A DNA stretch of 64,000 nucleotides from Alphaproteobacteria bacterium (lineage in GTDB: Bacteria > Pseudomonadota > Alphaproteobacteria > Rs-D84). The stretch lies in NCBI GenBank assembly GCA_009784235.1, contig WRCC01000001.1, forward strand, positions 113,506 through 177,505, written 5' to 3'. Below, in pieces: positions 32,218-36,171 of the stretch. The notes under the pieces are model-generated. The model saw only the letters and a list, made by a program, of their open reading frames with translations. It had not been told where the DNA came from and searched no databases. Made by a program: the position numbers and the translations under genes. Positions within the stretch are counted from its first letter, which is position 1. Each line of letters opens with the position of its first letter.

Positions 32218-34718
<2,501 letters not shown>

Positions 34719-34736: not shown

Positions 34737-34792
34737 GGGCGGGAATTTACCCGCCCACACACAGGAGAGCCCGTACTCAGGCATAAATTCCC
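34737..34792. other. Mutually exclusive hairpins between obg and the RNA gene
   Basis: GGGCGGG-N6-CCCGCCC (34737-34756) competes with a 9-bp stem formed by GGGAATTTA (34741-34749) and TAAATTCCC (34784-34792). Such overlap is typical of switches or attenuators, but no ligand motif is recognised. The remaining bases of this gene-free stretch hold the obg promoter. Confidence 0.5.
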
Positions 34793-34803: not shown

Positions 34804-35018
34804 AAAAATAGACCGCCAAGAAGGTTTGGCGGTCGGGAAGTTAGAAAATCAGCAAAGTAGTGACTCCCCGGTTTTTGGGCGAACCCTATTTTATAACCGG
34901 TGGCTTCCCGACCAAGGTCAGGACAACGGTGCGAGAAGCACGCGTCTGTTGTAACGGTGCTCTCGCACCGACTTTGCTGGGACTTCTATATCCCGAATTC
35001 CGATTTTACCTGGAATTC
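34804..35018 (-). ncRNA. Unclassified structured RNA gene of about 215 nt
   Basis: A minus-strand promoter, a chain of strong helices and a T-run terminator define an RNA with no ORF. The helices are: GGAATTC/GAATTCC at the 5' end; a 13-bp arm closed by CGGTGCGAG/CTCGCACCG, with an alternative CGGTGC-GAGA-GCACCG hairpin; CCGGTT/AACCGG enclosing a GGG-TTCG-CCC tip; and GACCGCCA/TGGCGGTC before the TATTTTT terminator. CTTCCCG (34904-34910) can pair with CGGGAAG (34834-34840) while AGCAAAGT pairs with ACTTTGCT around it, which would make a pseudoknot. The AGGAAAGTCC of RNase P and any tmRNA tag are missing. A divergent 6S RNA is possible. Confidence 0.6.
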
Positions 35019-35024
35019 CGGTGC

Positions 35025-35052
35025 ATTGTATAAGATTTATAATTTTTGTAAA
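35025..35052 (-). promoter_or_regulatory. Promoter of the unclassified RNA
   Basis: TTTACA, 16-base spacer, TACAAT on the minus strand. The start would fall at the GGAATTCC that opens the RNA. Confidence 0.65.
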
Positions 35053-35054
35053 GA

Positions 35055-35087
35055 GAAAAAAATTCCCCAATCCGGGGAATTTTTTTA
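35055..35087 (-). terminator. Terminator of the META lipoprotein gene
   Basis: AAATTCCCC-GGAT-TGGGGAATTTTTTT-type hairpin overlapping the stop codon, with T-runs on both strands. Confidence 0.9.
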
Positions 35088-35474
35088 GTTCAATTTTTCA
35101 AATACTATTTCCTTGCCATCAGTCGCGCGCAGCAATAATTCATTGCCGGACAATTTGAATGTTTCCACCGCATTCAAGAATTGAAAATATTCGAATTCGA
35201 CGCGCATGGCATTTTCGTCCAAGCCCATCATCATCGTTGCCGCAGCCGGACCGAATCTGATGTTGCGACCGTTGATTTCATACGGCGCATTGTAAGTATT
35301 GACCACGCGACCGAACGCACGGTCTGCATCGTCTGCAAAATTCAATGTGATTTCTGTACCATCAACGGTCGTAATAAATTCACCGCCGCGCAAGACAACC
35401 GGTTCTTCGGATGTGCATGCCGCGATTGGCAGCAACAGTGCCATTGCCAGTATAGATGTTGAAAGTTTTTTCAT
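35085..35474 (-). CDS. META-domain lipoprotein (HslJ-like)
   Basis: A lipobox 'LLLPIAACTSEE' predicts lipid anchoring. The 110-residue mature part has the META-domain pattern 'NGRNIRFGPAAATMMMG...MRVEFEYFQFLNAVETFKLSGNELLLRATDGKEIVFEKL'. META proteins include HslJ, a heat-shock-induced envelope protein linked to novobiocin resistance; the biochemical role is unknown. It lies 20 bases after the YgjP-like protease gene and is the last gene of the tkt run, closed by a strong terminator. Confidence 0.87.
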   Translation of the reverse strand: MKKLSTSILAMALLLPIAACTSEEPVVLRGGEFITTVDGTEITLNFADDADRAFGRVVNTYNAPYEINGRNIRFGPAAATMMMGLDENAMRVEFEYFQFLNAVETFKLSGNELLLRATDGKEIVFEKLN

Positions 35475-35493
35475 TTTTGCTCCTTTTTATTTA

Positions 35494-36171
35494 TTAAAAA
35501 TATTTATGCAATGATTGTCCATTTTTAGACAGCCACAGTTTCGCGCGTTCAACGCCCGGACCATACAGTTCCGATACAAGGCGCCAAAAATCCGGCGAAT
35601 GGTCCATATGTTTTCGGTGTGCCAATTCATGCAATATTACATATCGCATTACGGCTGGCGGCGCGAATGCCAGACGATATGAAAATGAAATTGTTCCGCT
35701 GGCGGAACAGCTGCCCCACCGGGAAGTTGTATCGCGTACTGCAATTCGTGCCGGGCGGAATTCACGTGGCGCGGCGGCGATTTCACACTTTACACGCGCC
35801 AAGAATTGTTTTTTAATTTCATCGCGTACGCGCCGTTCGAAAAATTCAGGCGAACCGCCAACGATAATTGCATGTTGCGTTTCGGATTTATTATTTGTTA
35901 ACAGTGTTTCTTTGCCGAATACTGTAATAATATCACCTGATTTTAATTTAATTTTTTCTGGTGCGCGGGCAAATATTTTTTCCAGCCATCGTTGCTTTTC
36001 TGCAACGAATTTCATTGCGCGTGCATGCGACACCAATCGCGGCAATGTTATATGCAGTTCGCGCGTTGGTGATACTTTTGGTCGCAAGACAATGTTCCGA
36101 ACACCGGATTTGGTATTAAAAATAATTGGAATTTCTTCGCCGCTGGCAAGTACGAATGTTTCGGTTTTCAT
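35494..36171 (-). CDS. YgjP-type (DUF45) zinc metallopeptidase
   Basis: The 225-residue protein has the DUF45/YgjP layout: an N-terminal beta-rich part ('NIVLRPKVSPTRELHITLPRLV', 'KFVAEKQRWLEKI'), 'DTTSRWGSCSASGTISFSYRLA', and the zinc motif 'HELAHRKHMDHSPDFW' with HExxH and a downstream third His. The fold is related to SprT and WSS1; substrates are unknown. Its start overlaps the transketolase stop (ATGA), so both are on one transcript. Confidence 0.88.
   Translation of the reverse strand: MKTETFVLASGEEIPIIFNTKSGVRNIVLRPKVSPTRELHITLPRLVSHARAMKFVAEKQRWLEKIFARAPEKIKLKSGDIITVFGKETLLTNNKSETQHAIIVGGSPEFFERRVRDEIKKQFLARVKCEIAAAPREFRPARIAVRDTTSRWGSCSASGTISFSYRLAFAPPAVMRYVILHELAHRKHMDHSPDFWRLVSELYGPGVERAKLWLSKNGQSLHKYF

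Follow-up and report, generated by a model that had tools for sequence, protein, structure and literature searches.

A probable C4-type antisense RNA gene, divergent from sRNA-Xcc1, near obg in an alphaproteobacterium of order Rs-D84

The RNA gene and its neighbors

The window, defined here as the whole 64,000-nucleotide stretch of contig WRCC01000001.1 that was analyzed, contains a structured RNA gene at positions 34804-35018 on the minus strand. It lies in a gene-free stretch flanked by a lipoprotein ORF (35085-35474, minus) and obg (33641-34684, minus). The first-pass annotation had placed a promoter-to-terminator RNA gene at nearly exact coordinates and had not given its strand. A minus-strand promoter-like site, a terminator, and the fold of the RNA bear out a real gene, and the strand is minus. 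The predicted primary RNA is about 215 nucleotides long. Its promoter, terminator, fold, and match to covariance model R1 (described below) point to an orphan copy of an sRNA-Xcc1/C4-type antisense RNA.

The minus-strand fold has an energy of −97.3 kcal/mol, compared with −62.0 ± 4.2 kcal/mol for shuffled sequences (z −8.3; 0 of 200 shuffles as good). The plus-strand fold also scores because hairpins fold on both strands. A plus-strand RNA was rejected, as it lacks a terminator at the 35018 end and the promoter and terminator fit the minus strand.

All parts of the element are on the minus strand and are given here from 5’ to 3’. The candidate promoter, a consensus match only, is sigma-70-like (35025-35052, TTTACA-16-TACAAT) and matches at 10 of 12 positions. 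The RNA begins with a predicted cap hairpin, P0a (34995-35018, GAATTCC...GGAATTC), whose place in relatives is taken by hairpins of the GAATCCAAAGGGATTTGGGTTC type. Hairpin P0b (34979-34994) has the form GGGA-TATAGAAG-TCCC. Its loop is the a1 segment, and both stem and loop covary in relatives (helices 1 and 2). The b1 segment (34971-34979, CAGCAAAGT) is complementary to b’ by pair search and covariation (helix 3). A variable hairpin region (34914-34970), recognized from the fold and from comparison with relatives, connects the 5’ domain to the core.

The antisense core (34831-34913) is sRNA-Xcc1-like and is closed by stem P1 (GGTCGGGAAG/CTTCCCGACC), with P2 and P3 inside. It is identified by RF02221, R1, and covariation. 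The core contains the b’ antisense segment (34850-34858, ACTTTGCTG), found by pair search and covariation, and the a’ antisense segment (34841-34849, ATTTTCTAA), found by covariation. The intrinsic terminator (34804-34834) is composed of GACCGCCAAACCTTCTTGGCGGTC and TATTTTT, and its stem covaries in relatives (helix 4). The terminator 5’ arm and the 3’ strand of stem P1 have the bases GACC in common.

A perfect hairpin, GGGCGGGTAAATTCCCGCCC, is present between the RNA and obg (34737-34756, minus). Comparison with loci L002, L015, L019, and L023 suggests that it is possibly a remnant of a second small element seen at that place in relatives. The next gene, obg, starts about 120 nucleotides after the terminator. 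It has its own promoter-like site (34718-34691), and its start has no match to a’ or b’.

Relation to Rfam families

At Rfam cut-offs, a scan of the window returned tRNAs only (n = 2). With the thresholds relaxed, RF02221 (sRNA-Xcc1) aligns to the core (34913-34823, minus) with 43.1 bits and an E value of 1.8e-6, a score that falls short of the curated cut-off of 53 bits. The alignment is full-length, with all 87 model positions covered by the window core. The RF02221 layout of P1, P2, P3, antisense stretch, and terminator is present, and those helices covary in relatives. Because its score is below the cut-off, the window element is filed as a divergent relative and not as a member. Linking copies from the class-level sample match both R1 and RF02221; one of these (L102) passes the RF02221 cut-off at 56.2 bits, and two more score 44.

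The first-pass annotation had set aside RNase P RNA, tmRNA, and SRP RNA and had suggested a divergent 6S RNA or a new class. The former is upheld: the three RNAs have no match in the window at Rfam cut-offs or relaxed thresholds, and ARAGORN reports tRNAs only and no tmRNA. Neither suggestion holds. The 6S RNA model (RF00013) has no match in the window at its cut-off or even at E ≤ 10, and the 3’ half of the element matches sRNA-Xcc1 below threshold in a layout like that of a phage C4 locus. The Rfam scan proposed there as a check thus found a family, yet with a sub-threshold score, and covariation, whose absence would have counted against an RNA, is very strong. The window element is a divergent relative of sRNA-Xcc1, neither a 6S RNA nor a new class.

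The C4 models (RF01695 and RF03163) have no match in the window element, the phage copies, or the other Enterousia copies, and the same is true of the c4-2 family (RF02944), named as an Rfam family in PMC11701678. A scan of 40 genomes of the family with RF01695 found none, and the control genomes for that scan also gave none. The same kind of Rfam scan recovers C4 in phage P1. Rfam places sRNA-Xcc1 outside the C4 clan.

An integron attC-like DNA element was considered since sRNA-Xcc1 had been described as integron-borne. It was rejected because promoters and terminators accompany the copies, which occur at scattered sites and show covariation at the RNA level.

Distribution and copy number

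The nearest relatives of the window Obg are found in alphaproteobacterial MAGs, Candidatus Enterousia among them. Enterousia belongs to order Rs-D84, and its genomes are mostly smaller than 1 Mb (PMC12306168). By blastn of relatives, the RNA was found in 51 of 100 genomes, many with several copies. Covariance model R1 was built from 28 copies; its alignment shows two-sided changes at 17 of 26 pairs, and 95.1% of cells pair. The window contains one R1 copy, which scores 91.5 bits at 34913-34810. R1 matches are present in 137 of the 142 genomes of the family (order Rs-D84, Candidatus Enterousia), and R1 also matches another family of the order. A class-level sample has matches in 22 of 289 genomes. 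RF02221 is present in 57 of the 399 Pseudomonadota genomes searched.

With laxer filters (E ≤ 0.001), 30 genomes carry 3-40 copies each. At E ≤ 0.01, there are 22 copies in G035, 39 in G104, and 64 in G006. The last is the largest copy number and belongs to a genome of about 1.1 Mb. The window’s own genome has three copies at this threshold, none with a clear gene directly behind it.

Copies in the family can be sorted into two subtypes. Type I has stem P1 GGTCGGGGAG, as in the window. Type II has stem P1 GGTCAGGAGG and a shorter core. At L011 (368-455, minus), an RF02221 copy of 58 bits, above the cut-off, is beside a type I copy and precedes a signal-peptide gene. Divergent pairs of copies about 1 kb apart occur in G104 (C2:161699-162822), G108 (C4:79623-80747), and G137 (C42:3207-4332). 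With their equal spacing, they apparently form a conserved two-gene unit.

The 5’ domain and the pseudoknot

Relatives contain a conserved 5’ domain upstream of the core, composed of the cap hairpin, P0b, and then the variable b1. The Rfam RF02221 model spans only the 3’ half of the element, and the 5’ domain with a1 and b1 is outside it. The P0b loop (a1) is complementary to a’, the stretch just before the 3’ strand of stem P1. In the window copy, a1 pairs with a’ only partly. The b1-b’ pairs are 7-15 base pairs long with 53 distinct b1 heptamers in a pair search over 65 copies, nearly all from the family, and some of these pairs are chance registers. The window copy retains b1-b’ as nine base pairs (CAGCAAAGT with ACTTTGCTG).

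In the full structure of 30 copies, 92.6% of cells are paired, and a1-a’ and b1-b’ both cross stem P1. This pseudoknotted structure has 134 cells with two-sided changes compared with 44.3 ± 4.6 in shuffles, and the pairing collapses when the alignment is slid by one base. Cognate pairing of the 5’ domain with the antisense segments, compared with permutation, gives z values of −12.8 for Enterousia type I, −2.8 for type II, −7.9 for phage-type copies, and −3.8 for other Alphaproteobacteria. The pseudoknot is therefore well supported by covariation and permutation, and the crossing pairings that the first-pass annotation had read as a possible pseudoknot are confirmed by covariation in the 30 relatives.

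At L207-L236, the leader contains a conserved hairpin upstream of the core (CCGCACCCGWCAG...TGCGG), followed by TATTTTTGTGCC. This hairpin looks like a first terminator and could release a short, IsrK-like RNA of a1b1 only.

Genes behind the RNA

In relatives, the median gap from the terminator to a start codon with a Shine-Dalgarno sequence is 30-35 nucleotides. By a strict criterion, such a start is found no more than 70 nucleotides after 68 of 106 elements, compared with 16 of 177 other terminators in the family. A second promoter would not fit in this gap, and the gene would thus have to be expressed by read-through.

Most Enterousia copies precede genes for secreted or surface proteins and glycosyltransferases. 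A signal-peptide-like N-terminus, called by a simple purpose-written rule, is present in 55 of 82 next genes and in 30 of 170 background ORFs. Cysteine makes up 5.3% of the next-gene products compared with 2.0% of the background. Pfam identifies glycosyltransferases, LicD, Chlamydia-type PMP repeats, a YadA anchor, and an outer membrane barrel. Copies outside the family precede other genes. Those following RF02221 copies in Pseudomonadota include antirepressor-type proteins (Bro-N, Rha, P22_AR_N, and KilA-N) and SymE, and those following class-level R1 copies include DNA methylase, GmrSD, and Mrr.

In records of Escherichia, Pasteurella, Aggregatibacter, Acinetobacter, and Vibrio phages, the RNA is located directly before genes annotated as ant, anti-repressor, or KilA-N. 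Phages with the RNA before ant or KilA-N genes include Rac-SA53, Aaphi23 (Haemophilus phage), Pmp1, VaK, and Acinetobacter 4316. In Moraxella phage Mcat15, the gene directly behind the RNA is unannotated. Stenotrophomonas phage Smp131 has the RNA within an ORF annotated as anti-repressor, the start of which was probably called too early.

An XRE-type helix-turn-helix regulator follows the RNA at L146, L092, and L126 (first copy). Loci L002, L015, L019, and L023 have a gap of 104-150 nucleotides downstream of the RNA, before LicD or glycosyltransferase genes. The gap holds an apparent second small element (GGGTGGATGCG...TGATTGTTTGAACATCCACCC).

Complementarity to the next start site

In phage-type copies, a’/b’ match the ribosome-binding region of the next gene (for example, at L236, RNA GTCTTGTTGCGGTTTTCGGC and mRNA CCCGAAAAGGAGCAACAAGAC). 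Cognate pairing of a’b’ with the start exceeds that of permuted pairs with z 8.4-8.7 (0 of 20,000 as good), and 19 of 24 copies pair more strongly with their own start than with 95% of unrelated gene starts. In these copies, a1b1 thus repeats the target in the sense orientation.

In Enterousia, a’/b’ alone do not match the next start above permuted pairs (type I z 0.6, type II z 0.1), and the type I antisense fits its own gene no better than unrelated starts (z −0.31). A signal appears when a’ is taken together with the inner strand of stem P1, which faces the Shine-Dalgarno sequence: the duplex energy with the start gives z 3.6 for type I (4 of 20,000) and z 2.4 for type II. Since the tests of a’/b’ alone are null and the wider segment gives a signal, a C4 mechanism within the Enterousia family is plausible and only partly supported.

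Comparison with known systems

The studied element and sRNA-Xcc1 (RF02221), a Xanthomonas integron and phage small RNA, share the closing stem, P2/P3 with an AUAMAAYA-type loop, the downstream GAUUUU-CUAAC stretch, and the terminator. Both are multi-copy, mobile, and located before genes. They differ in the sub-threshold score of the window copy and in the a1/b1 domain, which the Rfam model lacks. In Xanthomonas integrons, sRNA-Xcc1 is upstream of symE (PMC12444791), and RNA-seq of E. coli O157:H7 places it among non-translated RNAs with counts similar to RNase P RNA (PMC5331693).

The C4 locus of phages P1 and P7 (RF01695; c4-a1b1, RF03163) has the same order of promoter, a1, b1, hairpin with a T run, and antisense core, followed by a2 and b2 at the start of an antirepressor operon; within the core, a hairpin holds b’, and a’ precedes the closing strand. 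The P1 record is annotated promoter-a1-b1-c4-a2-b2-icd-ant. Its b’ (TCACTAAC) is in a hairpin, and its a’ (CTGTCAA) is just before the closing strand. The 5’ hairpin of P1, GCGGTATTTTTGTGYCC, resembles that of the studied copies, which also hold a close equivalent of the P1 leader hairpin with GCGGTATTTTTGTGTCC. Rfam matches in P1 are C4, c4-a1b1, and, below threshold, isrK (35 bits, in the C4 leader). As in C4, an upstream a1b1 is complementary to a’b’, with b1-b’ of nine base pairs and a partial a1-a’ in the window. The a2b2 counterpart at the ribosome-binding site of the next gene is strong in phage-type copies, weak in Enterousia, and absent beside the window copy. The studied RNA differs from C4 in core sequence and inner helices, has no RF01695 match, and in Enterousia mostly precedes surface or secreted protein genes and not antirepressors.

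IsrK, a short RNA upstream of anrP, acts in trans on the read-through mRNA that shares its promoter (PMC4825925). The likeness to IsrK of Salmonella prophage Gifsy-1 (RF01394) is that of a short terminated RNA and a read-through mRNA from a single promoter. IsrK differs in that it activates translation in trans, and the window element has no isrK match. SymE/SymR and P22 sar are further cases of antisense RNA control of SymE or an antirepressor, and SymE and antirepressor genes are among those behind the studied RNA. SymR and sar differ in orientation, with transcription opposite to the target or directed away from it. In the studied element, RNA and gene have strand and promoter in common.

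Proposed mechanism and alternatives

The locus probably encodes a self-targeting antisense RNA of C4 type that is divergently related to sRNA-Xcc1. The window copy is read as an orphan of this type. In general order, such a gene would consist of a promoter, a 5’ domain with sense segments a1 and b1, a core with antisense segments a’ and b’, a terminator, and the ribosome-binding site of the next gene. In phage-type copies, that site, tens of bases further on, would be the second sense copy, a2b2. Termination would turn most transcripts into a stable antisense RNA. Read-through transcripts would carry the gene, but a’/b’ would cover its start site, acting either in cis or in trans from the short RNA, and the gene would be kept nearly silent. 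By analogy with C4 and IsrK, a1b1 would compete for a’/b’ and so set or release the block. The structure, the covarying a1-a’ and b1-b’ pairs, the placement before genes, and, in phage-type copies, the cognate match to the next start are observed. Silencing, its direction, and its trigger are the parts that we infer. In the Enterousia family, the device has expanded ahead of genes for surface and secreted proteins.

An unlikely alternative is a riboswitch-type cis attenuator, in which a ligand or protein is bound by the P2 internal loop (TTATAMAAYA opposite GAAA), and the choice between termination and read-through depends on whether stem P1, with the GACC it has in common with the terminator, forms. 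Such an attenuator would account for the RNA and terminator just before genes, for the bases common to P1 and terminator, and for a P2 loop that is almost invariant with no base pairing to explain it. Dozens of copies before functionally similar genes also recall known multi-copy riboswitches. However, the most variable segments covary in pairs and, in phage-type copies, match the target start gene by gene, which argues for an address and not a ligand pocket, and the next genes have no common metabolic theme across phyla. Less probable still is a classical trans-acting sRNA whose many targets are unrelated. This role was proposed for sRNA-Xcc1 in Xanthomonas, where the RNA is about 88 nucleotides long (88 by Northern and RACE) and has numerous predicted targets (PMC2996969). 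The window copy, having no adjacent target, would fit this reading. Across Pseudomonadota, however, the antisense segments fit the adjacent gene specifically, and placement beside a gene is conserved.

Under the preferred C4-type reading, a further consequence may follow in Enterousia. Much of the antisense sequence (a’ and the anti-Shine-Dalgarno part) is common to the RNAs, and the b1/b’ lock is private to each. Cross-repression may therefore occur. It is conceivable, if doubtful, that these RNAs repress each other’s genes and thereby limit production at any one time to one or a few of the secreted or surface proteins. If so, a phage immunity device would have given rise to an RNA-based antigenic or receptor-choice system.

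With the C4-type reading, sRNA-Xcc1, an Rfam family that had lacked an explanation, gains a concrete and testable mechanism. A literature search found no paper linking sRNA-Xcc1 to C4 or describing the Enterousia expansion, though one may exist. The surprise lies less in the window copy than in the amplification of this leader to dozens of copies per genome of about 1 Mb. An RNA device of phage-immunity type has repeatedly become the leader of genes for secreted proteins, autotransporters, and glycosyltransferases in very small genomes of gut bacteria, and how these uncultured organisms control surface variation thereby becomes testable. This leader is also found before antirepressor, SymE, and restriction genes in proteobacterial chromosomes and in phages, so the result predicts which genes are kept silent, and how.

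The window copy and obg

Apart from the element itself, a target search of the window’s own genome found only four matches, each with three mismatches, and none of them is a convincing start site. Together with the distance of 120 nucleotides to obg, the gene’s own promoter-like site, and the absence of an a’/b’ match there, this makes the window copy look like an orphan of a device that is rare in its genome (three copies), with no recognizable target. The copy would have kept its RNA and either lost an adjacent target or never had one, and it may act in trans or be a relic.

That the RNA is instead a leader regulating obg is very improbable. The two are on the same strand, with about 120 nucleotides from terminator to obg and no gene between, as a leader would require. 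The adjacency is not conserved, however: only 1 of 80 obg loci (L146) has the element just upstream, and there it points the other way. A close relative, L184, has ygjP directly beside obg without the RNA, and the promoter-like site and unmatched start of obg also argue against a leader.

Window positions 35085-36171 were also compared with L184. In the window, the lipoprotein gene and the RNA are located between ygjP and obg, and they were either inserted here or lost in the relative.
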